A stretch of DNA of 34,942 bases. It comes from Candidatus Delongbacteria bacterium (GTDB lineage Bacteria; UBA4055). A program made the translations under genes and the position numbers. Below, piece after piece: positions 3,408 through 23,731 of this stretch (within the stretch, counting starts at the first letter, position 1; each line of letters opens with the position of its first letter). The stretch lies in the NCBI GenBank assembly GCA_016937995.1, contig JAFGVM010000081.1, positions 1 to 34,942 on the forward strand. The letters are read 5' to 3'. A model generated the notes under the pieces. It ran no database searches and was not told where the DNA came from. It saw only the letters and a list, made by a program, of their open reading frames with translations.

Positions 3408-3430
3408 GTCATATTTTTTATTTTTCTATA

Positions 3431-3460
3431 ACGGAAATCTTCAGATTTCCGTTTTTTTTT
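3431..3460 (+). terminator. rho-independent terminator of glnS
   Basis: The perfect 10-bp stem ACGGAAATCT / AGATTTCCGT with a tight loop is followed by a run of nine T, 24 bases after the glnS stop. Confidence 0.9.
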
Positions 3461-3484: not shown

Positions 3485-3513
3485 TTGTCAAATATATATA
3501 TATATACTATATT
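3485..3513 (+). promoter_or_regulatory. predicted promoter of the PPIase-bamD operon
   Basis: TTGTCA (3485-3490), 17 bases made mostly of a TA run, TATATT (3508-3513), 50 bases before the first ATG. Both hexamers match the sigma70 consensus at five of six positions. It appears to drive all seven genes up to the terminator at 13237. Confidence 0.7.
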
Positions 3514-3563: not shown

Positions 3564-5024
3564 ATGAGATTTATCAAAGCAACCGCAGTAATCATAGCAA
3601 TAATAACTTTAATAGCCTGCAAACAAAATTCAAACAACTCTAAATACGTAGTTACATCTTCTGTAGGTAATATCATTTTTTCCGACTTTCAGGATCAGAT
3701 GTTAAAGAAAGAATTTGAAGGTGATAAGCTTAAAGCTGCAAACAGTAAAATGGAGCAGAGAGAAAGATTTCTAAATTCAATGATAATGGATAATATCGTA
3801 AAGGATATGGCCGCAAAAAATGATCTTGACACTGTTAAAACCGTAAAGGATAAGTTCCATAATATTTTGTTTTACGATGCGATAGTTAATCACATGGTCG
3901 TTGATAGTGTTGAGAGTAAGATCTTCAGCCAAAAGGATGTTCTAGATACCTATGAAAAGAAAAAAACAGATTACTTCCCTAAACATATTCTTATAGCTGT
4001 AGATAAATCGCTGAACGATACACAGGCAAAAATGAAAATAGATTCCATTTACAATGAATTGGTGTCAGGTAAGGATTTCTCAGAACTCGCAAAAAAATAT
4101 TCATCAGATAAAAAAACAGGTGTTAACGGAGGAGAGTTGGGGTGGTTGCACTCTTATGACCTTCTTGAAGAATTTGAAAATGTATTGATAAAGCTTAAGA
4201 AAGGTGAGATATCAAAGCCTTTTAAAACAAAATATGGATATCATATCGCATTATTATCGGACATTAAAAATAATGAAGACCTGAAACCTTTTGAAGAAGA
4301 GAAGGGTGTTATAGAAAAGGAGTTGACGGCTAAATACGGAAAAGAATATTCAAATGAAAGCAGAAAATTTCTTGATAACATAATGGTAAGGTTAAATGTC
4401 AGAATAGACACTTTGGGTATTAAAACTCTCGTTAAGCAGTATAGAAAGAACGAACTGGAATTTAAAGATACCGACAAAGATCCTATTTCCAGATTCTCAA
4501 ATGAAGACAGAAAAAAGATCCTGGCAAGTTTCAATGATGTCAAGATTGATATTGATACTCTGCTGACAATGATGGGAACAATTCAGATCAATAAAAGACC
4601 ACCTCTAAAGAATCTAAACAACGTTATAGATATTCTGAAGAATATTCTAAAAATAAAAATGCTAGAGAATTATGCAGAAAATTTGGGTTATACAAAACGA
4701 CCGGAACTGATCGAAAAAGCTAAAGATGCAATGTTGCCTACATACAAAGATGTACTTATTAACAAGCTTGTAAAATCTAAAATTGAGATTTCTGAAAAGG
4801 AAATTGAGGAATTTTACAAGGAAAACATGGACAAATATAAAACACCTGAAGGATACGATCCGATCGATAAAGTAAAAGCAGGAATAAAAAATTCAATTAA
4901 AGGTAAAAAATTCAAAAAAGAGCTGAATAAATGGGAGGATGACCTTTTTAAGAATTATGATGTTAAAGTAAACAAGGTGCTATTGGAAGAAACCTTCTAC
5001 TACGTAAGTGATGACAAACAATAG
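3564..5024 (+). CDS. parvulin-type PPIase lipoprotein (PpiC family)
   Basis: A 486-residue exported lipoprotein with signal and lipobox LIAC (Cys19). Residues about 138-235 are a rotamase (PpiC) domain: FPKHILIAVD, then DFSELAKKYSSD, NGGELGWL and PFKTKYGYHIALL, the usual order of landmarks. The rest is charged and helical, as in the SurA/PrsA chaperone arms. The family folds or escorts secreted and outer-membrane proteins in the periplasm. The lipid anchor makes it PrsA-like in topology. AGGAG (3552-3556) sets the start. It is the first of three consecutive PPIase genes, 14 bases before the next. The domain call is firm; the specific clients are unknown. Confidence 0.88.
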   Translation: MRFIKATAVIIAIITLIACKQNSNNSKYVVTSSVGNIIFSDFQDQMLKKEFEGDKLKAANSKMEQRERFLNSMIMDNIVKDMAAKNDLDTVKTVKDKFHNILFYDAIVNHMVVDSVESKIFSQKDVLDTYEKKKTDYFPKHILIAVDKSLNDTQAKMKIDSIYNELVSGKDFSELAKKYSSDKKTGVNGGELGWLHSYDLLEEFENVLIKLKKGEISKPFKTKYGYHIALLSDIKNNEDLKPFEEEKGVIEKELTAKYGKEYSNESRKFLDNIMVRLNVRIDTLGIKTLVKQYRKNELEFKDTDKDPISRFSNEDRKKILASFNDVKIDIDTLLTMMGTIQINKRPPLKNLNNVIDILKNILKIKMLENYAENLGYTKRPELIEKAKDAMLPTYKDVLINKLVKSKIEISEKEIEEFYKENMDKYKTPEGYDPIDKVKAGIKNSIKGKKFKKELNKWEDDLFKNYDVKVNKVLLEETFYYVSDDKQ

Positions 5025-5038
5025 GGATTACTGAAAAT

Positions 5039-6445
5039 ATGCGAAAATTTATACTTTTAATACTCATAATGTCAGTAGCAGGAAGTTATGCTGCTTTGGA
5101 TTCAAATCTGGTATTAACACCCGGTTATGAAAACAAAGTATTGGCTACGATCGATGGTAAAGAGATCAAAGAATTTGATGTTTTTGGTATTCCCAGCTTT
5201 TCAAAGATTAGAGAAAAGATCAGTTTGCAAACAAGAATTGCAAAGATCCAGGACCATATTCTGGATGTGATTTTTCAGAAAGAGGGTAATACTCCTGAAA
5301 TTACAAATTCAGTTGATTACGTCAAAACCTATAACATGATATCAAAAAAGATCTCAGTCGATCAATTCAGGGATGATCTGATTGATAAGAAATTTCTAGG
5401 AAAAAGACAGATCGAAGAATATTACGAACTTAATAAGGATAAATATCCTGAAGGAATGAAAGATATTGCGAAAATTAAAGAAGATCTACGAAATTCTAGG
5501 AAAAGAGAGATCGATTCATTCATTTCTCACACACTTGATTCATTGAAAATTGATAAGAAAGTTGAGTATAACGAAGAATTACTGAGAAAGATAGCAGAGA
5601 TAAGATTGTCAGAGCCTTCTGTATTCGCAGATTCTTTAAAATCTATTGGTTTAGGGAAAGTATTGGTAAGTTACAAGGATCAGAAAAAAACCATTACAGA
5701 CCTGTATGCAGTTGTAAGAAATTTTAAACCATACCACATGGATAATTTAAATAATATAAGAGTTTTAAAATCTTTGGTAGATGGTGAGATATTAAATGAA
5801 CTGTTGGCTGAAATAGCAAAATCAAAAGGGTATTTAGATGATAAAAGGGTAATCGAGAATTCAAAAGATAAAATGAAGTATTTTATTTCTTCTGAGTACA
5901 AAAAAAGATTATTCCAGGTTGATAATTTCAAACCTACAAAGGATGAGCTGATCGACTATTATATTGAGCACAAAGATGATCCTGAACTTAAAACCAGAAA
6001 AAAAATGTGGACTTTTGAAATATTTAAAGCTTACGACAATTCAGACAGTATTGACACCAATGATAAAATTAAAGTTGCTTTGGAACTTGAAAATATTCGA
6101 CAAAAGATACTCAATGGTGAAAGTTTTGAAAAATACGCAAAATTCTACGCAAGGCCAAGTACAAGAGATGGAGAGCTTGGTTACATATACAGGACTGACT
6201 ATGCTATGATAGGTGAAACCGCTGATAAACTTGAAGTTAATGAGATCTCTGAGTTGATAATTCAACAGAAAGCAATATCGATAGTAAAAGTGACAGAGAT
6301 AAAAAATCCACAATTGTATAAATTCGATTATGTGGAGGAGATAGTTAAGAATAGGGTGATTGACCAAAAGAGAGATAAGTTCAAGGACGAATTAAAGAGT
6401 AAACTTTTTAAAAAATACAATGTTGTGTTTTTAGGCGAGCAATAA
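5039..6445 (+). CDS. periplasmic PPIase-like protein (divergent PpiC family)
   Basis: This 468-residue protein has a cleavable signal peptide (MRKFILLILIMSVAGSYA). A SurA-like helical N-terminal region begins at about residue 35 (NKVLATIDGKEI). Near residues 317-425 is a divergent PpiC domain: ESFEKYAKFYARPS, RDGELGYIYR and LEVNEISELI keep the order of parvulin landmarks, but the active-site segments are less conserved than in its two neighbours. It may therefore act as a chaperone more than as an isomerase. It sits 14 bases after the lipoprotein PPIase and 12 bases before surA. Confidence 0.75.
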   Translation: MRKFILLILIMSVAGSYAALDSNLVLTPGYENKVLATIDGKEIKEFDVFGIPSFSKIREKISLQTRIAKIQDHILDVIFQKEGNTPEITNSVDYVKTYNMISKKISVDQFRDDLIDKKFLGKRQIEEYYELNKDKYPEGMKDIAKIKEDLRNSRKREIDSFISHTLDSLKIDKKVEYNEELLRKIAEIRLSEPSVFADSLKSIGLGKVLVSYKDQKKTITDLYAVVRNFKPYHMDNLNNIRVLKSLVDGEILNELLAEIAKSKGYLDDKRVIENSKDKMKYFISSEYKKRLFQVDNFKPTKDELIDYYIEHKDDPELKTRKKMWTFEIFKAYDNSDSIDTNDKIKVALELENIRQKILNGESFEKYAKFYARPSTRDGELGYIYRTDYAMIGETADKLEVNEISELIIQQKAISIVKVTEIKNPQLYKFDYVEEIVKNRVIDQKRDKFKDELKSKLFKKYNVVFLGEQ

Positions 6446-6457
6446 ACCGGAGATAAA

Positions 6458-7720
6458 GTGAAAAGTGTTATATATATCCTGATAGCCATACTGTTTTATG
6501 CGAGCAGTACTCGATGCGAAATAATTGATAGAATATCTGCTGTGGTCGGAGATGAGATCATTTTGCAAAGTGAAGTCTATCAATTGGTAGAGCACCAGAA
6601 ATATATGCTGAGCGGGAATTATAACAAAGCGGAACTCAGGCAGATGGTACTTGACGAGCTAGTGTCTGCAAAAATATTATATGATGTCGCACTAAAAGAC
6701 ACCACCATAACTGTTGAAGATGAGGAAGTAGAACGGATATTGGATGACAGGATAAATTCTGTTCTTGAGAGAGTTGGTGGAGAAAAAAATCTTCAGGAAC
6801 AATACAATACTACTGTTAGCAAACTAAAAAAAGAATATAGAACTGAAATAAGAAAAACTCTGTTCGTCGACAAGCTTAAAAACAGAAAACTTCAAAAAAT
6901 CGATGTTTCAAGAAAGGAGATCGAGGATTTTTATAACAATTTTAAAGATTCTATTCCTGAAGTAAAATCAACGATATCACTCAGTCAACTGGTCATAAAC
7001 AGCAGTGATGAGTCATTAGCATTACAAAAAGTATTTCAAAAACTTAAAGCCATTAAAGAAGAAATAATTTCAGGTAAGATCACTTTTGAGGAAGCTGCAG
7101 AAAAATACTCACAGGATCCTGCTTCAGCCAAAAACGGTGGTGAACTGGGTATCACTTCAAGAGGTGATCTTGTTACAGAATATGAAATATCCGCTTACAA
7201 CCTGAATGAAGGAGATATTTCTGAACCGGTAAGAACAGCTTTCGGGTATCATCTGATCAGACTGAATAAAAAGATCGGCGAGAAGATAAATACATCTCAT
7301 ATACTCATAAAAGCCACACAAGATGAAGCAGATGATGATGCAGCTAAAAATAAAGCACTACTTGTTAAAGATTCCATAATGAACAAGTACATGACATTTG
7401 AGGAAGCTGTTAAAAAATATAGCTCAGATCCGGTGTCTAAAGCTAAAAATGGCAGGATAGGAATTCTTAAAACTGATGATCTTGATCCAAAATATCAGGA
7501 TATTTTCTCGGATTCGAAAATTGGATTTATAAGTGATCCGCTCAAGCAAAACGATGGGTATTATGTTTATAAGGTCATTGATAAACAATCTGCCCATAAA
7601 GTTGACTTAAAAACTGATTATAGTATGTTGAAAAATCTTGCTTCAGATCGTAAGAGACAGGAAGTTATGAAAAAATGGATTGAAGAGCTGAAAGAAAAAG
7701 TGTATATTGAAATCAAGTAA
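6458..7720 (+). CDS. surA: periplasmic chaperone/peptidyl-prolyl isomerase SurA
   Basis: A 420-residue periplasmic chaperone with the SurA layout: signal peptide, then the N-terminal module opening DRISAVVGDEIILQSEV (about 24-40), two parvulin domains and a C-terminal helix. The parvulin domains lie near 171-272 (KNGGELGITSRGD, GYHLIRL) and 277-376 (NTSHILIKA, KNGRIGILK). SurA guides unfolded outer-membrane proteins to the BAM complex, and bamD lies two genes downstream. The start is GTG, preceded by GGAGAT. The Cys at the end of the signal has Arg before it, so it is not a lipobox. Family placement is confident. Confidence 0.9.
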   Translation: MKSVIYILIAILFYASSTRCEIIDRISAVVGDEIILQSEVYQLVEHQKYMLSGNYNKAELRQMVLDELVSAKILYDVALKDTTITVEDEEVERILDDRINSVLERVGGEKNLQEQYNTTVSKLKKEYRTEIRKTLFVDKLKNRKLQKIDVSRKEIEDFYNNFKDSIPEVKSTISLSQLVINSSDESLALQKVFQKLKAIKEEIISGKITFEEAAEKYSQDPASAKNGGELGITSRGDLVTEYEISAYNLNEGDISEPVRTAFGYHLIRLNKKIGEKINTSHILIKATQDEADDDAAKNKALLVKDSIMNKYMTFEEAVKKYSSDPVSKAKNGRIGILKTDDLDPKYQDIFSDSKIGFISDPLKQNDGYYVYKVIDKQSAHKVDLKTDYSMLKNLASDRKRQEVMKKWIEELKEKVYIEIK

Positions 7721-7745: not shown

Positions 7746-10544
7746 ATGCAGAGTAACTACCGGTTTTTATATCTTATAATTCTATTGGTAGGCAGTATTT
7801 TTGCTACAGAAGTGGAGTTGTCAGAGGTAAATGAAATATTAACAAATAAGCACAAAGAGATCGGGAATGGCTTGATAAAAAATGTGCAGATTGCTCCGTT
7901 TAACGAAAATTTAATGAGCTTTGAAGTTCACTATGCGGATGATAAAACCATCAAGTTATTTTTGTATAATATCGAGGAAAAATCAATTTATCAGATCCAG
8001 TCTGCAAACTACTCCACTGGCAAAAAAAGCAAGAAAAGATATTATTTAAAAGATCAGGGTGTATCATGGCATCCAACTGAGAATTGGTTTACATTTTACG
8101 GAAATGGTCATTTGAAAAGAGATCAGTTATTTCTGTGTAAAGTTTTAGTGCCACAACTTATAAACGACTTCTCGGTTAAAGGTTACATGTTAGACATAAG
8201 GGAGAAGAAAAATACAAGGAGCTATTATAAGCAGCCATGTTTTGATTCAGAGGGAAAAAACATATTTTTTTCAAGAAGGATCGAGCTGAAAGATAAAAAA
8301 GCAAGATATAACAGAACGTATAATATCGCTTATATTGAGAATGTTATTTCAAAAGAGGAATCAAATTTTTCAGATATAGAATTTAAAACTGCAGTTGAAA
8401 AGAAATTTGATCAAATTTCTCCGATCTGTTCACCTACTGATCCGAAACTTGTTGCATATATTTCTTACAGGAACATGAAAAAAAGAGGTGGTGAATTCTA
8501 TCCTGATTATTCTTTGAATATCGTGGATATTTCCACCCAGGAAATAGCTGTGGTTGACAAAATGGACGGATATGATGATTACCCGTTCCAATGGAGTCCT
8601 TCAGGTAATTATATATTTTATTACAAGGCACTTTCACTTCTCATGACCAAGCAGGAATTCATTGATGATAAGATGAACGTGTTAAACCTTAAATTCGCAA
8701 AGGTAACGAGAGAAGGCAACACTATTAAAACATTTGTACAGTCCAATCCTAAAAGTGATATATTGCTGGATGACATAACCGGTAAATTTCACGGAATAGC
8801 TTTTTTGAACGATGAAAATATTCTGGTTTCAAAATATGATCCTATGGAAGCAATTACTTTAGTTGATATTCAAAAATGGAAAGATCTGGATAAGAAATAT
8901 TCAACTAAGCTTGATTTTAGTAATGATACGGATTACCCTATACTTGTTGGAAGTAAATTATTTTTTGTTTCTTATGAACTTGTCAATGACAATCTGGTCA
9001 TTGCCGCAAATTTTTCAGATGTGAAGATAAGTCTGCCTGATGGTCAATCAAGGATATTAACTTCAGCTTCTGCGATAGAGGAACAGATAGAGAAGTTCAA
9101 TGCTAAAATTTCTGAACATAATAAAGAAATTGAACCTATAGAAAAAGAATTGTCACAATTACAAAGTTCTCTTGATGCCGAAAATAAAATATTCACTGAA
9201 CTTACATCTCAAAAAGAAAAATTATCTTCCGTCAGGGATACTGAACTAGCTACATTGAACAGTTACAGAGAGAAAAAATCTTCAGGTCTTGAAACAGAAC
9301 AGGAGATAAGTAAACTGGTTACTCAGAAAGCGGAAATAGAAGCTCAAATAAAAAGTAATCAGGAATTAGTTGATGTTGAAAATGAGAAGATAAGAAAATT
9401 ATTACAAAATAAATCATCATTACAAGCTGATAAGAATACATCATTGGAATTGATCGTTCAATATAAGAGTAATCTAGCTGAAGTGTTACTGGCTGAAACA
9501 GAGATAACGACTATAAAGAACAATATAAACAAAGCAAAATTGGAAATTTCAGAAATAGAAAACAGCATGACAAAACTAAATGCTGAAATTGAAGAAGAGA
9601 ACAATCTTAAATCCAAGTTGGAATCAGATCTTGCAGCAAAAAATACTGAGAAAGCCAAAGCACGAGGGAATATAGATAATCTAAAGATCGAAAAAGCTAA
9701 AACTCTTGAATCGGAAGGAATGCTGGCAAGTTTTCAAAATCAGCTAAAAGAATTGAAAACAAAATCAACTAATATAGACAGCGAGATTAAGAAACTTCAG
9801 GATGACTTAAATTCAGAGAACTCTGCTTTAGCAAATAATGAAACTGCTATGAACTCAAAATCAAAAGAAAAAAGTGATCTTATAGCTTCAATTGAAAAAC
9901 TGAATAGAGATAAAACAGCTTCTGAATCCAAAAATATAGAAGAGCAGGTAGCATCATTACAAACAAAGCTTGATCAGTTGAATACTGAATTGGAAAAAAC
10001 GAATGATAAGCTTGGTACTTTTACATCTTTAGTTGCAGAGGAGAATAAAGCACTTGAAACCAGCAGGAAGACTTTAAAGGAGAAAAACGAAGAGAAACTT
10101 ACTTATATTAAAGACATCGAAAATTTAAAAACTGCTAAAGCACAAGCAATTAAAGATGAAACTTTAGCTAAGCAGAAAGAGGAAGAAGAACTTGCTGCAA
10201 AGAAGGAAGCAGAAGAACTTGCTGCAAAGAAGAAAGCAGAAGAACTTGCTGCAAAGAAGAAAGAGGAAGAGGAAAAATTGCGAAAAGAAAAAGAGGCTGC
10301 TGAACTTGTTGCAAAACAAAAGAAGGAAGCTGAAGAACTTGCTGCAAAACAAAAGAAAGAAGCTGAAAATCTTACACAAAAAGATACTGCTACTTCTGAA
10401 GAGGATGAATATTCAGATGATGATGAATACGTTGATGAGGATGAATACGTTGATGAGGATGAATATATAGAAGATGAGGAAGACTACTTTGACAATAATA
10501 CTACAACACCTACAACGTCAGGATCCACAAGGAGAAGAAGATAA
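7746..10544 (+). CDS. exported beta-propeller/coiled-coil protein with acidic repeat tail
   Basis: A 932-residue protein I cannot name. A signal peptide (about 1-21) is followed by a region to about residue 435 with TolB/PD40-like propeller blades: VSWHPTENWFTFYG, ISPICSPTDPKLVAYIS and FQWSPSGNYIFYY. Residues about 440-805 are a long heptad-rich coiled coil. Residues 806-878 are K/A/E-rich helix built from short tandem repeats (ELAAKKKAE, then ELAAKQKKEAE), resembling TolA domain II. Next comes an acidic DEYVDE repeat tail (about 885-915) and a final TTSGSTRRRR. It lies between surA and bamD, overlapping neither. A role spanning the periplasm or bridging the envelope is inference from architecture and position. 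The propeller call is by eye. Confidence 0.75.
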   Translation: MQSNYRFLYLIILLVGSIFATEVELSEVNEILTNKHKEIGNGLIKNVQIAPFNENLMSFEVHYADDKTIKLFLYNIEEKSIYQIQSANYSTGKKSKKRYYLKDQGVSWHPTENWFTFYGNGHLKRDQLFLCKVLVPQLINDFSVKGYMLDIREKKNTRSYYKQPCFDSEGKNIFFSRRIELKDKKARYNRTYNIAYIENVISKEESNFSDIEFKTAVEKKFDQISPICSPTDPKLVAYISYRNMKKRGGEFYPDYSLNIVDISTQEIAVVDKMDGYDDYPFQWSPSGNYIFYYKALSLLMTKQEFIDDKMNVLNLKFAKVTREGNTIKTFVQSNPKSDILLDDITGKFHGIAFLNDENILVSKYDPMEAITLVDIQKWKDLDKKYSTKLDFSNDTDYPILVGSKLFFVSYELVNDNLVIAANFSDVKISLPDGQSRILTSASAIEEQIEKFNAKISEHNKEIEPIEKELSQLQSSLDAENKIFTELTSQKEKLSSVRDTELATLNSYREKKSSGLETEQEISKLVTQKAEIEAQIKSNQELVDVENEKIRKLLQNKSSLQADKNTSLELIVQYKSNLAEVLLAETEITTIKNNINKAKLEISEIENSMTKLNAEIEEENNLKSKLESDLAAKNTEKAKARGNIDNLKIEKAKTLESEGMLASFQNQLKELKTKSTNIDSEIKKLQDDLNSENSALANNETAMNSKSKEKSDLIASIEKLNRDKTASESKNIEEQVASLQTKLDQLNTELEKTNDKLGTFTSLVAEENKALETSRKTLKEKNEEKLTYIKDIENLKTAKAQAIKDETLAKQKEEEELAAKKEAEELAAKKKAEELAAKKKEEEEKLRKEKEAAELVAKQKKEAEELAAKQKKEAENLTQKDTATSEEDEYSDDDEYVDEDEYVDEDEYIEDEEDYFDNNTTTPTTSGSTRRRR
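10188..10268 (+). repeat. 27-bp tandem repeat, three copies, inside a coding sequence
   Basis: Three near-identical 27-base units start at 10188, 10215 and 10242, each beginning GAACTTGCTGCAAAGAAG. They encode the nonapeptide ELAAKKxAE; the third copy diverges at its 3' end. Confidence 0.9.
10302..10367 (+). repeat. 33-bp tandem repeat, two copies, inside a coding sequence
   Basis: Two units start at 10302 and 10335 and encode ELVAKQKKEAE and ELAAKQKKEAE. The unit is two residues longer than the 27-bp repeat just upstream, from which it probably derives. Confidence 0.85.
10422..10475 (+). repeat. 18-bp tandem repeat encoding DEYVDE
   Basis: Two identical units, GATGAATACGTTGATGAG, at 10422 and 10440 are followed by a diverged third at 10458. 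They form the acidic tail of the propeller/coiled-coil protein. Confidence 0.9.
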
Positions 10545-10545
10545 T

Positions 10546-11259
10546 ATGAAACTTACATCATTACGGATATTAATGGTCTTATTCTTTACCTTTATCTTTT
10601 TTTCATGCACTAAAGAGATGAATATCAAAGATATGGGATTTGAGAAAAGTTTTTCAATCGCAAAGAAAAAATATCTAAATGAAAATTATATTCAGGCCCT
10701 TGATGATTTTAATGTATTATTATTGAACTATGGAGGCGAGACCGGTATTGATTCTGTACAATTTCTACTCGCTGATACACATTATAAACTGGGAGAATAT
10801 TATTCCGCATCATACGAGTTCAATAGATTAACCGAAAGTTTCCCAGAATCTAAATTAGCGGAAGAGTCATATTTTAATTCAGCTATGAGCTATAACGAAT
10901 TATCCCCAATATATTCACTTGATCAAAAAGAAACTTTTACAGCTATATCGAAATTTCAATTTTATCTTGATCTTTACCCATTCGGTAAATTTGCTGAGAA
11001 ATCTAATGAACATATAATCCTTTTAAGAGAAAAACTTGCAAAGAAGGAGTTTGAATCGGGCAGATTGTATCTGAAGATGGATCAACCCAGAGCAGCGAAA
11101 CTATATTTTCAAGAGATAATTAACAATTATTACGACACATCATACTATGTTCAATCCTTAAAATTTATAGCAGAAGCATATGATTCGATGAAGGATAATT
11201 ATAACTCACATCTTTTTGAAAAAAAATATGAAGAAGCTTTAAAAGACAATGCCAAGTAG
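10546..11259 (+). CDS. bamD: outer-membrane assembly lipoprotein BamD (YfiO)
   Basis: A 237-residue lipoprotein with lipobox FFSC and a TPR array: KKYLNENYIQALDDFNVLL, ADTHYKLGEYYSASYEF and FPESKLAEESYFNSAMSY. The BamD hallmark DQKETFTAISKFQFYLDLYP follows at about residues 123-142. BamD is the essential TPR lipoprotein of the BAM complex that inserts beta-barrel proteins. I chose the ATG at 10546, one base after the upstream stop. The frame is open 72 bases further up, but that stretch lies inside the preceding gene and would put a charged extension before the signal peptide. It overlaps nadD by 11 bases. Confidence 0.9.
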   Translation: MKLTSLRILMVLFFTFIFFSCTKEMNIKDMGFEKSFSIAKKKYLNENYIQALDDFNVLLLNYGGETGIDSVQFLLADTHYKLGEYYSASYEFNRLTESFPESKLAEESYFNSAMSYNELSPIYSLDQKETFTAISKFQFYLDLYPFGKFAEKSNEHIILLREKLAKKEFESGRLYLKMDQPRAAKLYFQEIINNYYDTSYYVQSLKFIAEAYDSMKDNYNSHLFEKKYEEALKDNAK

Positions 11260-11815
11260 AATAGGAATATTTGGAGGTTCATTTGATCCGGTTCATAATG
11301 GACATTTAATAATTTGTAATTTAATTCGTGAAGAATTAAAATTGGAAAAGATAATATTTGTTCCTGCTTACAGATCACCACATAAGAAAGTAAGTAAATA
11401 TACAAAACCCGATGAAAGATTCGAAATGTTAAAGTTGGCTATTGGAGATAATGAGCACTTCAATATATCTGATTTCGAGATCAAACATAACAGGATGGTT
11501 TACAGTATTGAAACGTTGACTCATTTTAAGGGAATTTATCATGATTGCGAATTGTTCATGATATTAGGTTCAGATTCATACAACAATATTTCAAAGTGGA
11601 AAGATCCTGATAAAATAAAGAATATCGCAAAACTCGTTGTAGCCTCCAGAGATAACATTGTAATTGAAAACGAAGTTATTTGTGCTAATACACCAATTAT
11701 TGAAATATCATCTACAATGATCAGAGATAGAATAAGAAAAAATTTAAGTATTAAATATCTTGTAAATCCCGAAGTTGAACACTATATTTATAAAAAAAAG
11801 TTGTACGCAAATTAA
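11249..11815 (+). CDS. nadD: nicotinate-nucleotide adenylyltransferase
   Basis: A 188-residue cytoplasmic enzyme of NAD synthesis that adenylates nicotinate mononucleotide to deamido-NAD. GIFGGSFDPVHNGHL (6-20) holds the nucleotidyltransferase (T/H)xGH motif. PAYRSPHK is the NaMN-binding segment, GSDSYNNISKWKD the central signature, and EISSTMIRDRI the ISSTxxR motif. The length is normal. The start codon lies inside the last codons of bamD in another frame, suggesting translational coupling. It has no functional tie to the envelope genes around it. Confidence 0.95.
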   Translation: MPSRIGIFGGSFDPVHNGHLIICNLIREELKLEKIIFVPAYRSPHKKVSKYTKPDERFEMLKLAIGDNEHFNISDFEIKHNRMVYSIETLTHFKGIYHDCELFMILGSDSYNNISKWKDPDKIKNIAKLVVASRDNIVIENEVICANTPIIEISSTMIRDRIRKNLSIKYLVNPEVEHYIYKKKLYAN

Positions 11816-11846: not shown

Positions 11847-13211
11847 ATGTCTGAAGAAAAAAATAACAACTCAAAAAGTGGATACAAGGATGTCCTAAAT
11901 AACCGAGAAGGAAGTGAAGGTCCAAGTATATATGGTAGCTTCAGAAAAAGAATCCTCGATGAAAATGAAAAGCAGATATACGATAAGGTTCAGGACGGAG
12001 CTTCAACTGGTTATAATTTTGAAGGAGAAAGTACTTTAGAAGGTGATTATATACGTAAAGTTGATAAGAAAGTTGTCGTTTTGTATGTTGTTATATCAAC
12101 GATCATATTAACCTCTCTCATAATATTCCTTTACAGCTTAATCCCGGGGCCAGAAGATAAATTCAAACAGTACAAATCTTTAAGAGCTGAATTTGAAAAA
12201 TTAAGCGTTAAAATGAGCCAGAAAAGAAAAGAAATTGAAACTATTGTGCTGGAATTAAAATCTAATGAAAAATATAAAGATCTTGAACTTGAAGATTCCG
12301 AAGGCAGCATTCTATCTGATCAGCAGTTGGAAACTCTTTCAGAAAAAGCAGAAACTGAAGATGATAAAGGGATCAAATCCAAGATTAATACTATTGTGCA
12401 AACGGATAAGGAATTAAAAGAGCTTCAGAAGAATATCCAGTCTAAATATAAAGGTCTTGAAGCACCTGAGGTAATGACAGATGAGATCGGCCATGAAGAG
12501 ATAGCACTAAGCTATTTAATAAATACCAAAGGTCTTGATCATACAGAAGCGTTAAATCTGCTGGAAAGTGTCAATATTTTTGATTATGCATATGAGGGAT
12601 TATATGTTTGGAATTTTTATGAGGATGGTTTTTATGGATCATTTATTACAAAGGGTGAAGCCGATAAAACTCCAAATGAAATAAAAAAATTAGCTAAACG
12701 GGCTTTCAAAGCAAGGATTAATGCATTACTTACTGAAAAGCAGAAATTAACTGAAAAGATAGAGATGCTGGAAGCTGAGAACAGAAGAAATAATACTAAT
12801 AAAGAAATCGATGACTCTCCGGTTGTTGAGAAAGAAGATACCGATGATACTCCTGCTGATACATATGAAGAAAAAAATATAGTTGAAGTTAAAGCGATCA
12901 ACTACAAATTACTCAGTTTTGATTACGCTCAAAAGAAAGGTGTAATAACTGAGTCTATGTGGGATGGAGTCAAGCTAAACAATTCAAGAGGAATCGATTA
13001 CGCTTCTAAAGTGGATTTCTCAGTGACCGATAATCTTATAATTAAACCTAAGCAATTTGGTCTTTCAACTTTTACAGAAGTTTATGTTTTCCCGAAAAGT
13101 TTAGTCGCCTCAGGATATATAGACGTGATAAAGAAAAATACAGAATGCAGAATAGAATTTAACGGCCTAGATAATTTGAACGGTAAAAATTTATTGATCA
13201 TTGCAAAGTAG
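11847..13211 (+). CDS. single-pass membrane protein with coiled coils, function unknown
   Basis: I do not recognise this 454-residue protein. A charged N-terminal segment (1-75) precedes one transmembrane helix (about 76-99, VVVLYVVISTIILTSLIIF). Coiled-coil stretches follow near 105-140, 165-190 and 285-315, with an acidic linker (about 318-345). The final 110 residues (about 345-454) form a separate, probably beta-rich domain ending in KNLLIIAK. By the positive-inside tendency the N-terminus may be cytoplasmic. It is the last gene of the operon, 31 bases after nadD and just before the terminator at 13237. A part in envelope assembly is possible from position only. Confidence 0.75.
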   Translation: MSEEKNNNSKSGYKDVLNNREGSEGPSIYGSFRKRILDENEKQIYDKVQDGASTGYNFEGESTLEGDYIRKVDKKVVVLYVVISTIILTSLIIFLYSLIPGPEDKFKQYKSLRAEFEKLSVKMSQKRKEIETIVLELKSNEKYKDLELEDSEGSILSDQQLETLSEKAETEDDKGIKSKINTIVQTDKELKELQKNIQSKYKGLEAPEVMTDEIGHEEIALSYLINTKGLDHTEALNLLESVNIFDYAYEGLYVWNFYEDGFYGSFITKGEADKTPNEIKKLAKRAFKARINALLTEKQKLTEKIEMLEAENRRNNTNKEIDDSPVVEKEDTDDTPADTYEEKNIVEVKAINYKLLSFDYAQKKGVITESMWDGVKLNNSRGIDYASKVDFSVTDNLIIKPKQFGLSTFTEVYVFPKSLVASGYIDVIKKNTECRIEFNGLDNLNGKNLLIIAK

Positions 13212-13236
13212 AATACTTGAATTTACAAAGATATAG

Positions 13237-13270
13237 CAGCGGATCATTAAATATCCGCTGTTTTTATTTA
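13237..13270 (+). terminator. rho-independent terminator ending the PPIase-bamD operon
   Basis: The 8-bp stem CAGCGGAT / ATCCGCTG with an 8-base loop is followed by TTTTTATTT. It lies inside an upstream extension of the next open frame, which supports the later ATG at 13295 for that gene. Confidence 0.85.
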
Positions 13271-18575: not shown

Positions 18576-18604
18576 AAATTAAATTAAATTAGGAGTTCTA
18601 CATA

Positions 18605-20014
18605 ATGATCTGTCCAGAATGTAAAACACTAAATCCGAATTCGATCAAAAAGTGTATTAAGTGCGGTGCTAAATTAGAAAAAAGTGATGCACCAAAAAAG
18701 AAACCTGAAAAAAGAACAAGTATTAAACCTCAGAAACAAGTAGCACCTACACCTGTAAAAGTCCAAAAACAAAAACCGGCCGGAGGTGGCGGAGAGGAGA
18801 AGAAAGGAAAAGGCATATATGTAGTTCTTCTTGTAATATTAGCTGCTGTCGGAGCATATTTTACAAAACCTGATCTTGCTAGTTTTAAAGAATTCATTAC
18901 AAGCAGTATTCAAGCTGATCAAGAAGATGCTTTCTTTCAATCTTTAACGAAGGATGAATTTATTACCAAAGGATTGGTAGATTCACTTGACTATCAGGAC
19001 ATGTATGTATGTGCAATGATAGAAGTTGAAAGCAAAGGAAATACAAGAAAATATCTTGGTATAGCAAAAAGCTGGTACGACATTACTTCTCAGGAAGTTG
19101 CTCCAGATACAACTGCTGTTGCTGAAGCTGATTCAGTTTCGTCAGAAGATCTTACGGATAAAAAAAATAATGATGTCTATGATGAATACAATGACATATA
19201 TCTTGGAAAAAAGAGTAAAGGCCCACAGGATACGACCCTATACAAATCTTTATCTGATGCTGAACTTGCTCAAAGGAATAAGAAGCTGAGAAAACCGAAT
19301 GAGAAAATTTATTACGCAAAAGACAATAAGAAAATGATGCTGGTCCCTGCTCAAACCTTTAAAATGGGAAGTGATAAAGGGTCTATGATTGAAAAACCTT
19401 CTCACACGGTTAAAGTTAGAGCTTTTTACATGGACGCAACTGAGGTCACTAATATTCAGTTTAAAAGATTTTTGAAAGAGACAGGATATAAACCTAAAGG
19501 CAGTCTAGAGCATTTGAAGGATAGAAGGTTCAATCATGATAACCAACCTATAGTGGATGTAGATTATTATGACGCAGCTGAGTATGCTAAATGGGCAGGT
19601 AAACGACTGCCAACTGAAAGAGAATGGGAATGTGCTGCGAGAGGTGGAAAAGGATTAAAATATGCAGTTGGAGATTCTATCAGCACTGATATGGCGAGTT
19701 ACGGACTGCCGATAACAACAGGGAGTCCTGCAAGAGTAGGTAATTACAAGGAAAATGTCTACGGTATCAGTGATCTGAGCGGTAACGCAGCTGAATGGGT
19801 TTCAGGAGTTCTTACGGCATATCCTGGAAACAAAGCGATGTTCTCAGGTTACGGAAAAAATAGGATCGCTCGGGGAGGGTCATGGCTTTCAGAGGAAAAC
19901 GAAACTACAACTTTTGCCAGAAAACATTTGGATATTTCAAATTCTACCGGAAACATCGGATTCAGATGTGCTATCGGGCATGATATGGTAATGAAAATTG
20001 AGAACTCAAAGTAA
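18605..20014 (+). CDS. zinc-ribbon membrane protein with FGE/SUMF1 domain
   Basis: A 469-residue protein in three parts. An N-terminal zinc ribbon has CxxC pairs at Cys3/Cys6 and Cys17/Cys20, followed by a basic, proline-rich linker. One transmembrane helix lies near 76-93 (GIYVVLLVILAAVGAYF). After a charged spacer, residues about 240-462 form a formylglycine-generating-enzyme-like domain: MLVPAQTFKMGSD, VRAFYMDATEVTN, GKRLPTEREWECAARGG, GNAAEWV, RGGSWL and GFRCA. Most bacterial proteins with this fold are not sulfatase activators, and no sulfatase gene is near, so the activity is open. AGGAG (18591-18595) sets the start. It lies 29 bases after queA, with an SPFH gene next. Confidence 0.85.
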   Translation: MICPECKTLNPNSIKKCIKCGAKLEKSDAPKKKPEKRTSIKPQKQVAPTPVKVQKQKPAGGGGEEKKGKGIYVVLLVILAAVGAYFTKPDLASFKEFITSSIQADQEDAFFQSLTKDEFITKGLVDSLDYQDMYVCAMIEVESKGNTRKYLGIAKSWYDITSQEVAPDTTAVAEADSVSSEDLTDKKNNDVYDEYNDIYLGKKSKGPQDTTLYKSLSDAELAQRNKKLRKPNEKIYYAKDNKKMMLVPAQTFKMGSDKGSMIEKPSHTVKVRAFYMDATEVTNIQFKRFLKETGYKPKGSLEHLKDRRFNHDNQPIVDVDYYDAAEYAKWAGKRLPTEREWECAARGGKGLKYAVGDSISTDMASYGLPITTGSPARVGNYKENVYGISDLSGNAAEWVSGVLTAYPGNKAMFSGYGKNRIARGGSWLSEENETTTFARKHLDISNSTGNIGFRCAIGHDMVMKIENSK

Positions 20015-20050
20015 TTGAGATAAGATCTTTTTAGATCAGGAGGTATTATT

Positions 20051-21286
20051 ATGTCAACTTCGTCTAAATCAAATGCAATAGTATTAACGATGATTATGAT
20101 AATAATGATCGTAGGAGCTTTACTTTATTTTCTTGGTGGAGAAGTTAAATCTGACAAATATGTGATAAGACAGGAATTCTTCACAGGTAAAATGAGTGCT
20201 ATAACTGATGAAGGCTGGTACTTTAAATTTGGTTATGTCACGGAATTCAATATATCTGATATTATATGGTTCAGCGCAGATGCTGAAGAGGGAAGAGAGA
20301 AAGATGAATCAATTCGAGTTAGATTTAATGATGGTGCTTCAGCCCAAATATCAGGTTCTGTAAGATTTGTTTTGCCAACTGAACCGGACAAACTTATTCA
20401 ATTGAAGAAACAGTTCGGAACTTTTGAAAGAATTAAGAAGGAACTTGTTATACAGGTGGTCAATGAAGCGATTTATCTTACAGCTTCTCTGATGAGTTCA
20501 AAGGAGTCATATACAACTAAAAGAAGTCTTTTCTCTGATTATGCACAGGATCAAGCACTGAACGGTGTTTTCAGGACAAGAACGAATGAAATATTAACGA
20601 GAGATTCATTAACCGGTGAAGTTTCAACTTTTACTGAGATAGAGATCCTGAGAGATCCGAAAACAGGTGAGATACTGAGAAAAGAATCAGCCTTAAAGGA
20701 TTATGGTGTAAAATTAAAGAATTTTGTTGTTAAAAGAATTCAGTACCCGGACAATATTTTAGTTCAGCTTGATGAGCAGCAACAGGCTTTAATGGATGTT
20801 CAGAAAGCTAAAGCGATGGCTCAAAAAGCTGAGCAGGAAGCTATTACAGCTGAAAAAGAAGGATTAGCTAAGATAGCTATAGCAAAAGCTAAAGAGGAAG
20901 CAGTAAAGATCCAGGCGGTTGTTCAGGCAAAAAAAGTCAAAGAAGTAGCTGTGCTGGAAGCAGAAAAAGCCTTAGAGGTTGCAAAACTTGATAAGATGGC
21001 CGCAAAAGAATATAAAGAAGCAAAGGACCTAAGAGCTGAAGCTGATGCTAATGCTGCAAGAAAACTGATACAGGCGGACGGAGCACTTAAGCAAAAACTT
21101 CAAACATATGAAAATGTAATGAAATTCTGGGCTGATGCCTACACTAAACAAAGACCTACTCCTGATATTGTTATAGGTGGCGAGGATAAAAAAGGATGTG
21201 GTAATGCCGCAGAGCAATTTATGAATTTACTCAGCATTAAAGCTCTAAAAGATCTATCGCTTGATATGAATGTTAAAAATAAATAA
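20051..21286 (+). CDS. SPFH/band 7 membrane protein
   Basis: A 411-residue protein with an N-terminal membrane helix (about 10-30, IVLTMIMIIMIVGALLYFL). An SPFH (stomatin/prohibitin/flotillin) domain spans about 35-240, including RVRFNDGASAQISGSVRFVLP. A long alanine/lysine/glutamate helix (about 245-365, MAQKAEQEAITAEKEGLAK) is the usual oligomerisation segment. The C-terminus is short and contains GCGNAAEQF. These proteins form membrane ring or cage assemblies and often regulate membrane proteases, but no FtsH or NfeD partner lies here. AGGAGG at 20038-20043, 7 bases before the ATG, is a textbook ribosome site. It probably shares transcripts with the FGE-domain gene 36 bases upstream. Confidence 0.88.
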   Translation: MSTSSKSNAIVLTMIMIIMIVGALLYFLGGEVKSDKYVIRQEFFTGKMSAITDEGWYFKFGYVTEFNISDIIWFSADAEEGREKDESIRVRFNDGASAQISGSVRFVLPTEPDKLIQLKKQFGTFERIKKELVIQVVNEAIYLTASLMSSKESYTTKRSLFSDYAQDQALNGVFRTRTNEILTRDSLTGEVSTFTEIEILRDPKTGEILRKESALKDYGVKLKNFVVKRIQYPDNILVQLDEQQQALMDVQKAKAMAQKAEQEAITAEKEGLAKIAIAKAKEEAVKIQAVVQAKKVKEVAVLEAEKALEVAKLDKMAAKEYKEAKDLRAEADANAARKLIQADGALKQKLQTYENVMKFWADAYTKQRPTPDIVIGGEDKKGCGNAAEQFMNLLSIKALKDLSLDMNVKNK

Positions 21287-21302
21287 TTTGTTCAAAAACT
21301 GT

Positions 21303-21331
21303 TTGCTTTTTGTAAAATGATTTATTATATT
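21303..21331 (+). promoter_or_regulatory. predicted promoter of rpmE
   Basis: TTGCTT (21303-21308), 17 bases, TATATT (21326-21331), 48 bases before the rpmE start. Confidence 0.65.
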
Positions 21332-21379
21332 CGTGCTGCTGTAAGTAAAGCATGAAATTAGAAATTAAGGGGTTTATAG

Positions 21380-21595
21380 ATGAAAAAAGATATTCATCCA
21401 AAATATGAAACTGCAACAGTGTCATGTGTATGTGGAAATACTTTTGAGACAAGAACAACAGTTGGAGAGATCAAAGTAGAGATCTGTTCAAACTGTCATC
21501 CTTTTTATACTGGAAAAACAAGACTTCTTGATACTGCCGGACGTGTTGATAAGTTCATGAAAAAGTATAAGATCGCTGAAAAGAAAGAAGACTAA
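21380..21595 (+). CDS. rpmE: 50S ribosomal protein L31, zinc-binding type
   Basis: A 71-residue ribosomal protein of the large subunit. It opens [10 protein letters not shown] and carries the four zinc ligands of the C+ form, Cys16, Cys18, Cys36 and Cys39 (SCVCGN and [11 protein letters not shown]). It then shows the conserved [13 protein letters not shown] end. In many bacteria the zinc form is replaced by a cysteine-less copy when zinc is short; no second copy is seen here. It has its own promoter and terminator, with a DUF1385 gene next. Confidence 0.96.
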
Positions 21596-21627
21596 CTTTC
21601 CGGTCTGAGTTTCAATATTTTAAAATT

Positions 21628-21663
21628 AAAAGCACATACTTTACAAAGATGTGCTTTTTTACT
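21628..21663 (+). terminator. rho-independent terminator after rpmE
   Basis: The 10-bp stem AAAAGCACAT / ATGTGCTTTT with an 11-base loop ends in a T run, 33 bases after the stop. The DUF1385 start lies only 14 bases further on, so some readthrough or a promoter within rpmE would be needed. Confidence 0.85.
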
Positions 21664-21676
21664 TTAGGGGTATAAG

Positions 21677-22621
21677 TTGAAAGAAGAAAAGATATCTATT
21701 GGTGGCCAGGCAGTCATAGAAGGAGTTATGATGAGATCACCTCAATATATTTCCACAGTTATTAGAAGAGCTGACGGTTCTATGGAAGACAGAACCGATA
21801 AATTCATTCCTTTGTCAAAAAGATATAAAATATTAAATCTACCTGTCCTTAGGGGAGCGATCAGTTTATTTGAGATGATGAAGGTCGGTATAGGAACATT
21901 GAACTGGTCGGCAGATAAAGCTATTGAAGATGAGAACATTGCAAAAGGTAAAGAAGTGGATGTAAATAAGGAAAAATCATTCCTTCAAAAGTTGTTTGAT
22001 GCAGTTGGGACTTCAGTTATATTGCTTATATCTCTGGGTATATTTATGTACATACCTTACAAGTTAACTAGCTACCTAAAAGCAATTGATGGTAATCAAT
22101 TTCTTTTCAATTTATTTGCAGGGATTATAAGAACTGCATTCCTGATATTATATATGTATGCGATCAGTTTTATGAAAGATGTTAAAAGACTTTTTGAATA
22201 TCATGGTGCAGAGCATAAGACAATTGCCCTATACGAGCAGAAGCTTGAACTGACTGTTGATAATGCAAGAAAACAAAGCCGTTTTCATCCCAGATGTGGT
22301 ACTAGTTTTATTCTGATAGCTGCGATCATTACAATATTTATTTTTTCAATTTTTGATAGTATAATGTATTTGTTTTATCAATATCCGAATGTTATCTCAA
22401 GGATAGGTGTTCATTTATTGTTCGTTCCCTTTGCAGTTGGAGTTTCATTTGAGTTATTGAAGCTTTCTGATAAATATTCTACTAACATACTTGTCAGGCA
22501 GCTTATTAAACCGGGTCTTTGGTTGCAGAAGATAACTACAAGTGAACCGGATGATAAGCAACTGGAAGTTGCAATTGAGTCTGTAAAGCTGTCCACAGCT
22601 TACTTAAATGATAGTGATTAA
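21677..22621 (+). CDS. DUF1385 (YqhQ-like) multi-pass membrane protein
   Basis: A 314-residue integral membrane protein of the DUF1385 family. The N-terminal signature GGQAVIEGVMMRSP (8-21) and the central EYHGAEHKTIALYE and HPRCGTSFIL motifs are diagnostic. Four hydrophobic segments lie near 111-130, 145-165, 211-234 and 242-262. The conserved His, Glu and Cys residues around EYHGAEH and HPRCG suggest a metal or catalytic site, but I know of no settled reaction. The start is TTG behind AGGGGT. The position next to rpmE is a pairing found in other bacterial phyla, where prmC/prfA often follow; here they do not. Confidence 0.9.
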   Translation: MKEEKISIGGQAVIEGVMMRSPQYISTVIRRADGSMEDRTDKFIPLSKRYKILNLPVLRGAISLFEMMKVGIGTLNWSADKAIEDENIAKGKEVDVNKEKSFLQKLFDAVGTSVILLISLGIFMYIPYKLTSYLKAIDGNQFLFNLFAGIIRTAFLILYMYAISFMKDVKRLFEYHGAEHKTIALYEQKLELTVDNARKQSRFHPRCGTSFILIAAIITIFIFSIFDSIMYLFYQYPNVISRIGVHLLFVPFAVGVSFELLKLSDKYSTNILVRQLIKPGLWLQKITTSEPDDKQLEVAIESVKLSTAYLNDSD

Positions 22622-22635
22622 TGTTCGTGATTTGC

Positions 22636-22665
22636 AGGGGATACCTTCAAATCGTCCCCTCTTTT
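22636..22665 (+). terminator. likely terminator after the DUF1385 gene
   Basis: The 6-bp GC-rich stem AGGGGA / TCCCCT with a 13-base loop is followed by CTTTTT. It is weaker than the other terminators here. Confidence 0.55.
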
Positions 22666-22675
22666 TAAAAGATAG

Positions 22676-22698
22676 ATCCTGAAATAAATTCAGGATGA
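22676..22698 (+). repeat. small palindromic repeat, copy 1
   Basis: ATCCTGAA (22676-22683), 5 bases, TTCAGGAT (22689-22696), then GA. It shares the pattern ATYCYGAA-N5-TTCAGRAT and the same orientation with copies at 23773 and 25883. Confidence 0.75.
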
Positions 22699-22717
22699 CA
22701 AAGAAGGAGGATGAATT

Positions 22718-23731
22718 ATGAAATTTTTATTGATCTGTTTAACATTATTTACAAGTTTATTCTCACAATTTTCAAGTAGTGTTGATTATAAAGAATTATC
22801 TAGAAAAAAAAATTCATTCGGTTTAAGCTTAACTAATTTTACAGCTGAGAACCAATGGGATACTGATTTTATTAATGGCGTTGACACTGTTAAATTCACT
22901 GGTGTATATGATCATCTTGGAGATAAAATTGAACTCGATGGTTTTTATTACTTAAATGAAGACAGATTGATTTATAGACTTGGATTCTCACTGGACACAT
23001 ATTCTTCTATAATTAAGATCGATACACTGGGTTTCAGAGAAAGATTTGTACCTGATGAAAAAAATCTGGCATGTAGTTTCGGAGAGCTCGGATATGTTTT
23101 TGGAGAAGATGAATTCGGTGGTTCTGTAGGATTCAATTTATACTCGATAGATGAAAGAAAATGCTTTATAGGTTCAGTTAACGGATTTATTAACAGTAAA
23201 ACAGTATCAGGTAATAGATATGGTGCTGATCTGGGTTATATATTTGTATCTGATGACTCTTTAAGGTCATATGTTAGATCAAATAATGTCATATCTCCCG
23301 ATATCAAATTCGGTGTACACTACATTTATTCCGGTTATACATATGATCTGAAGTTTTATTCCGGTTTAAATCTATTTGACTCAGAGATATATGAAGAAAA
23401 TGCATATATTAATTTTAGTGTATCATACAATAGAAGTTTAGAAAAATTGAAAACCGATCTTTTATTTAATGTAGGTTCGAATGTTACTTCGGAATTTGAT
23501 ATTCCAGAGATCCAACTACCATTTCTTTATTATGGGGTTGCGGTTGAGAATAAATTTTTTGGGGAGAAATTCAGGTTGTTGATAGGATGGAGGTCTGAGA
23601 TGTATTATGCTGTTATAGGTAGTTTTGATGATATATCTGAGTACATCCCTGCTCATTATCCTGCAATGTTCGATCTGGAACAGACCATGACTAGGAATAA
23701 ATTGTTGATCGAAGTGAATTATTTGTATTAA
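22718..23731 (+). CDS. predicted outer-membrane beta-barrel protein, function unknown
   Basis: I do not recognise this 337-residue protein. It has a signal peptide ending LFTSLFSQ and then almost only short amphipathic beta strands with alternating aromatic residues (LDGFYYLNEDRLIYRLGF, FGVHYIYSGYTYDLKFYSG, LPFLYYGVAVENKFFG). No large soluble domain and no cysteine-rich region are seen. This is the look of an outer-membrane barrel. The start has a strong ribosome site, AAGGAGG (22704-22710). It lies 97 bases after the DUF1385 gene, with a terminator and a palindromic repeat between, and converges on the M29 peptidase gene. Confidence 0.7.
   Translation: MKFLLICLTLFTSLFSQFSSSVDYKELSRKKNSFGLSLTNFTAENQWDTDFINGVDTVKFTGVYDHLGDKIELDGFYYLNEDRLIYRLGFSLDTYSSIIKIDTLGFRERFVPDEKNLACSFGELGYVFGEDEFGGSVGFNLYSIDERKCFIGSVNGFINSKTVSGNRYGADLGYIFVSDDSLRSYVRSNNVISPDIKFGVHYIYSGYTYDLKFYSGLNLFDSEIYEENAYINFSVSYNRSLEKLKTDLLFNVGSNVTSEFDIPEIQLPFLYYGVAVENKFFGEKFRLLIGWRSEMYYAVIGSFDDISEYIPAHYPAMFDLEQTMTRNKLLIEVNYLY

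Follow-up and report, generated by a model that had tools for sequence, protein, structure and literature searches.

The window analysed here, a stretch of 34,942 nucleotides from a genome of the uncultured phylum Candidatus Delongbacteria, encodes a real, lineage-specific and undescribed propeller-rod protein, hereafter X, which is packaged tightly with outer-membrane protein chaperones and BamD. Its conserved core consists of the propeller and a nearly indel-free coil (residues 551-785). The orthologues preserve the reading frame at 37-59% overall identity and retain the propeller, the coil, the acidic tract and the arginine end, and judged by this conservation the ORF is a genuine gene and not a chance one.

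Gene model and probable export of X

All of the features that an earlier note on this DNA had listed for X (signal peptide, WSPSG and WHPTE motifs, heptads, K/A/E repeats, DEYVDE repeats and an RRRR end) were found in the ORF, which is preceded by an SD-like site 5' of its start. The features are located as follows.

7746..10544, + strand: CDS of X, a propeller-coiled-coil protein of 932 aa (ORF and orthologues)
7746..7805, + strand: signal-peptide-like N terminus, residues 1-20 (inspection of translation)
7809..9035, + strand: predicted beta-propeller, residues 22-430, 28 strands, seven blades by count (AlphaFold, Foldseek)
9078..10361, + strand: long helical/coiled-coil region, residues 445-872 (model secondary structure, heptad periodicity)
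9396..10100, + strand: near indel-free coil block, residues 551-785, with a short gap at 726-732 (alignment A2)
9702..9713, + strand: helix break, residues 653-656 (model and conservation)
10170..10367, + strand: K/A/E-rich stretch, a 27-bp (33-bp) DNA tandem array (repeat scan, orthologues)
10401..10465, + strand: DEYVDE acidic repeat, an 18-bp DNA repeat (repeat scan)
10530..10541, + strand: AGGAGAAGAAGA, last four codons of X (RRRR) and SD-like site of bamD (sequence, duplex energy)

By inspection, the hydrophobic N-terminal stretch, which ends in GSIFA directly before TE, looks like a cleavable signal peptide, and no lipobox Cys follows the h-region. X is probably exported, non-lipidated and periplasmic.

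The earlier note had put X forward as an undescribed component, which was borne out in that X is a lineage-specific protein matched by neither of the family libraries searched: Pfam gave no match above cut-off, and the NCBIfam matches were all to SMC-type coils and far below cut-off. A profile search with the full alignment of X against PDB sequences returned generic coils only (Smc, CT398), and literature searches found no described propeller-coil-BamD protein. As far as searched, X appears to be confined to Delongbacteria.

The predicted propeller domain

A propeller-only AlphaFold run on an alignment of 11 sequences (A3) yielded a confident model of residues 22-430 with blades (pLDDT 85, pTM 0.87), as the earlier note had proposed. 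Its 28 strands form seven groups of four, with the N-terminal strand closing the last blade, the blade number being counted from a predicted model and not from a solved structure. Reading of the alignment gave seven PD40-like motifs, near residues 49, 108, 164, 226, 283, 353 and 398 (WHPTE lies at residue 108 and WSPSG at 283), which agrees with this count.

The Foldseek search with full-length X was blurred by generic coil matches. Searched separately against the PDB, the propeller returned mostly propeller proteins, led by the TolB/Pal complex 4r40 (E 2.1e-8, TM ~0.41), while the best TM values among the top matches belonged to oligogalacturonate lyases (3pe7, 0.53/0.57; 3c5m, 0.54/0.59); S9 peptidases were also among the matches, and the fold matches of X included sialidases. 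Within the TolB/S9 propeller fold group that was matched, E ranged from 2e-8 to 1e-6 and TM from 0.4 to 0.6. A profile search with the propeller alignment against PDB sequences gave 0 matches, Pfam reported no family above cut-off for the propeller, and PD40 matched only 2 of the 11 members, with E values of 0.035 or weaker. Of the relation to TolB/PD40 that had been suggested, the fold match to the TolB/PD40/S9 group stood and the profile match above cut-off did not; as predicted, the propeller belongs to this broad fold group. A weak genome match in G057 was rejected as an S9-peptidase-like protein on reading of its sequence.

The predicted helical arm and its repeats

The long heptad coil described earlier is helical in the model (445-872, with breaks at 498-500, 581-584 and 653-656), with a moderate model confidence that is mostly 77-84 around residues 590-720 and lower in the rest of the coil. 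Its periodicity exceeds that of shuffled sequences: the P/W-free stretch of X has a hydrophobic period of 3.55 residues, exceeded in 0/500 shuffles, and the periods of 3.45-3.55 in X and the operon orthologues were reached in at most 2/500. Among eight full-length orthologues there is no indel at residues 551-725 and 733-785. The best-conserved part of the coil, residues 646-671 (LKIEKAKTLESEGMLASFQNQLKELK), contains the 653-656 break, and the arm, whose shape is predicted, may have a hinge or an antiparallel hairpin at about residue 655. At 0.15 nm per residue, the conserved block would be about 35 nm long if extended and about 15 nm if folded back.

The K/A/E-rich stretch, which had been likened to TolA, turned out to be a genus-specific DNA tandem array. 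It was found only in the window species and other members of the same genus, is missing from the orthologues of four other genera, and differs in composition from the conserved coil. In another genus, the short propeller paralogue carries a separate K/A/E-rich stretch at its N terminus, from which we conclude that such stretches arise repeatedly. The acidic tract is kept in the bamD-linked orthologues.

The transcription unit

As the earlier note had stated, X lies between surA (6458-7720) and bamD (10546) in the window, within a seven-gene unit.

3430..3453, + strand: terminator-like hairpin at the upstream end of the unit, following glnS (hairpin scan)
3485..3513, + strand: promoter-like TTGTCA-17-TATATT before PPIase 1 (consensus match only)
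3564..5024, + strand: PPIase 1 with rotamase domain, first gene of the unit (domain search)
5039..6445, + strand: PPIase 2 with rotamase domain (domain search)
6458..7720, + strand: SurA-like chaperone, two rotamase domains, weak SurA_N (PF00639 E 2.7e-40, PRK10770 match)
10546..11259, + strand: bamD, lipoprotein, FFSC lipobox by inspection (TIGR03302, PF13525)
11249..11815, + strand: nadD-like nucleotidyltransferase (PF01467)
11847..13211, + strand: uncharacterised protein of 454 aa, one TM-like segment and coil, no family, last gene of the unit
13235..13262, + strand: terminator-like hairpin at the downstream end of the unit, following the 11847 gene (hairpin scan)

The BamD assignment rests on a TIGR03302 score of 115.7 bits (cut-off 81.4). 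The unit PPIase-PPIase-SurA-X-BamD-NadD-(11847) is flanked by terminator-like hairpins, of which the scan found 7 in the window versus 4.4 expected. At the loci L026 and L028, similar promoter-like sites occur in the same place (consensus matches only), and terminators were not found at the same borders at the cut-offs used. The gene right after the unit varies: it is TolC-like in the window and unrelated in L026, and L028 has no additional gene at this place. For the TolC-like gene, the TTG start listed at 13217 precedes the hairpin at 13235-13262, and the true start of the gene is probably further downstream. The 11847-13211 protein, for which neither Pfam nor NCBIfam gave a match above cut-off, always closes the surA-X-bamD-nadD unit in relatives, at 53-75% identity. 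Elsewhere, the source genome has two strong Omp85-type genes (C82 5199-6089 and C31 31047-31994), one of which adjoins a Skp/OmpH-like gene.

The RRRR end and the likely bamD ribosome-binding site

In the window, the junction between the two genes reads AGGAGAAGAAGA TAA T ATG, i.e. one AGG and three AGA codons, the stop of X, a single T and the start of bamD at 10546; an alternative bamD start at 10474 was rejected. AGR arginine codons end X in 10/10 bamD-linked copies read, and in 10/10 linked copies the bamD SD lies within the last codons of X, with duplex energies of -5.8 to -7.7 kcal/mol computed against the canonical anti-Shine-Dalgarno. In the linked copies, the stop of X overlaps the bamD start, directly adjoins it or lies very close to it, and in several of them the ATG overlaps or touches the stop. 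Both unlinked copies lack the motif (0/2). Since the arginine codons coincide with the bamD SD and are absent from both unlinked copies, the conserved RRRR end is most simply explained as a bamD ribosome-binding site read in frame; the terminal arginines may also have a role at the protein level, but a conserved sorting or binding motif was set aside as their main explanation for the same reasons. Tail arginine codons are AGA or AGG in 39/39 cases versus 184/211 in gene bodies, a bias that is weak by itself, as the copies have a common ancestry and AGR is in any case the dominant type of arginine codon. With its SD in the last codons of X and its start at or just after the stop, bamD is likely to be translationally coupled to X. 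A striking motif at a protein end (RRRR or RRGRR) can hence be a ribosome-binding site, and the two most eye-catching features of X, the TolA-like repeats and RRRR, both have ordinary explanations.

Conservation in Delongbacteria

The propeller profile of X matched in 13/13 Delongbacteria genomes examined, the match in one of them (G002) being a fragment, and in 10 of the 13 the long form lies next to bamD. In nine genomes the order of the seven genes is kept as far as the contigs reach; in the tenth, the tail of X is followed by bamD. Wherever sequence covers them, the surA-X and X-bamD junctions of all linked copies are intact, and later genes change. The expectation that homologues in relatives would lie beside surA or bamD was thus largely supported, but two divergent genera (G004 and G007) have their propeller+coil genes at other places and a bamD-nadD pair that lacks X, from which we conclude that the linkage to BAM, as read from gene order, is strong and not obligatory. 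The remaining genome (G011) has neither a linked X nor a bamD orthologue, which suggests one assembly gap. The larger conserved block also includes the housekeeping genes tyrS, glnS, ruvB and queA, and another gene block in the window is likewise conserved, so that synteny alone is moderate evidence, supportive rather than decisive.

The tree places the operon copies together, weakly supported at 68/86, and unites the two unlinked ones in a single clade. In G004, motA/motB/fliL/fliM-like genes follow a few kb downstream of the homologue (L032 9962-12070). Most genomes also encode a propeller-only paralogue, which in the source genome shows 45% identity. These short paralogues (e.g. L034 9613-11223) have no coil and carry variable N-terminal extensions with a PEGA-like look in the window's genus and K/A/E-rich in G006.

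Proposed role of X

We tentatively favour the reading that X is a periplasmic, lineage-specific scaffold that helps outer-membrane protein assembly and is made together with three PPIase chaperones and BamD, its partner and function being inferred. X would be produced from one transcription unit with these proteins, NadD and the membrane coiled-coil protein; its propeller would serve as a docking head and its long coiled coil as an arm, and, as a lineage-specific accessory, it could help the chaperones to hand over unfolded outer-membrane proteins to BAM or, alternatively, keep BAM in place or position it. This role is supported by the confident propeller, the conserved order of the unit, the bamD SD in the codons of X, the bracketing hairpins, the joint lack of X and bamD in G011 and the existence of lineage-restricted BAM subunits (PMC12611786). 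It is weakened by the unlinked homologues in G004 and G007, the housekeeping genes in the block and the propeller-only paralogues. A more specific version, in which X belongs to the Delongbacteria BAM as a lineage-specific subunit or as an arm for docking chaperones, translationally coupled to BamD, with the propeller binding BAM or the SurA-like PPIases and the arm spanning much of the periplasm, we consider doubtful.

Less probable than the assembly scaffold, though to be taken seriously, is that X acts in the periplasm as a general structural or spacer protein with a propeller head and a rod body, unrelated to BAM, and that its position before bamD reflects an old gene block that was retained. 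The divergent homologues in unrelated neighbourhoods, one of them near motA/motB/fliM-like genes, as well as the housekeeping genes in the block and the conservation of the second block would fit this explanation, but it accounts poorly for junctions on both sides of X that stay unbroken in linked copies while later genes change, and for a bamD ribosome-binding site inside the reading frame of X. A secreted or surface rod with the propeller as an adhesin-like or ligand-binding head is improbable: the signal peptide without a lipid anchor, the long coil and the fold matches to lyases and sialidases are compatible with it, but Pfam and NCBIfam detected no sorting domain, anchor or surface-rod-typical repeat in X, which belongs to a chaperone-BamD unit.

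Comparison with known systems

TolB consists of a Rossmann-like domain and a six-bladed propeller (PMC12204202). X resembles it as an exported beta-propeller with 4r40 as its Foldseek rank 1, but the TM value is modest, X lacks the Rossmann-like part and has seven blades by count and weak PD40 repeats, it is fused to a coil, and none of the 10 linked loci has tolQ/R/A, pal or motor genes beside it. TolB_N (PF04052) has no match in X or the source genome and was not found in 13/13 Delongbacteria genomes, the single marginal match (G006) being a CsgG/FlgO-like protein on sequence reading. With TolA domain II, X shares a K/A/E-rich helical composition, but the stretch is a tandem array of DNA found in one genus only, and Pfam gave no match to the TolA C-terminal domain, the C terminus of X being an acidic tail ending in RRRR. 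X fits neither definition and is not a fusion of TolB and TolA, as the earlier note had read it.

As to tolB, tolA and pal elsewhere, the source genome lacks TolB_N matches but has one ExbB-type gene with adjoining ExbD- and TonB-like genes (by reading), three OmpA-domain genes and several PD40 proteins, one of them a small lipoprotein, and may thus encode a divergent TolB equivalent. In the cluster at C2 ~18600-23000 (L065), ExbB, two ExbD-like and two TonB-like proteins occur together, this ExbB being the only ExbB-family match in the source genome. That X replaces a missing Tol-Pal system, as one envelope-bridging protein with a TolB-like head and a TolA-like arm, would fit the lack of TolB_N in the phylum, the single ExbB-type motor gene and the fold match, but is very improbable given the blade number, the genus-bound repeats, the neighbouring genes, the lack of a match to the TolA C-terminal domain and an N terminus that reads as a signal peptide, with no other candidate for an inner-membrane anchor.

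The propellers of oligogalacturonate lyases and S9 peptidases (a PD40-like group) gave the best TM among the top matches and have WxPxG-type blade motifs like X, but are only ~7-13% identical to X, which has no peptidase domain or enzyme family match. BamB is the propeller lipoprotein of BAM. X, a propeller encoded beside a BAM component, could be its functional analogue, although it has no PQQ-type propeller match in Pfam and no lipobox Cys, and carries a coiled coil. The BAM of Bacteroidota has unexpected, partly lineage-limited subunits, with BamP only in Flavobacteriaceae and full-length BamM only in Flavobacterium (PMC12611786). We claim no homology or fold link between these proteins and X, but they provide a precedent for lineage-restricted BAM subunits, and while BAM composition outside Proteobacteria is under revision (PMC12611786), X is a concrete candidate for another lineage-specific extension.
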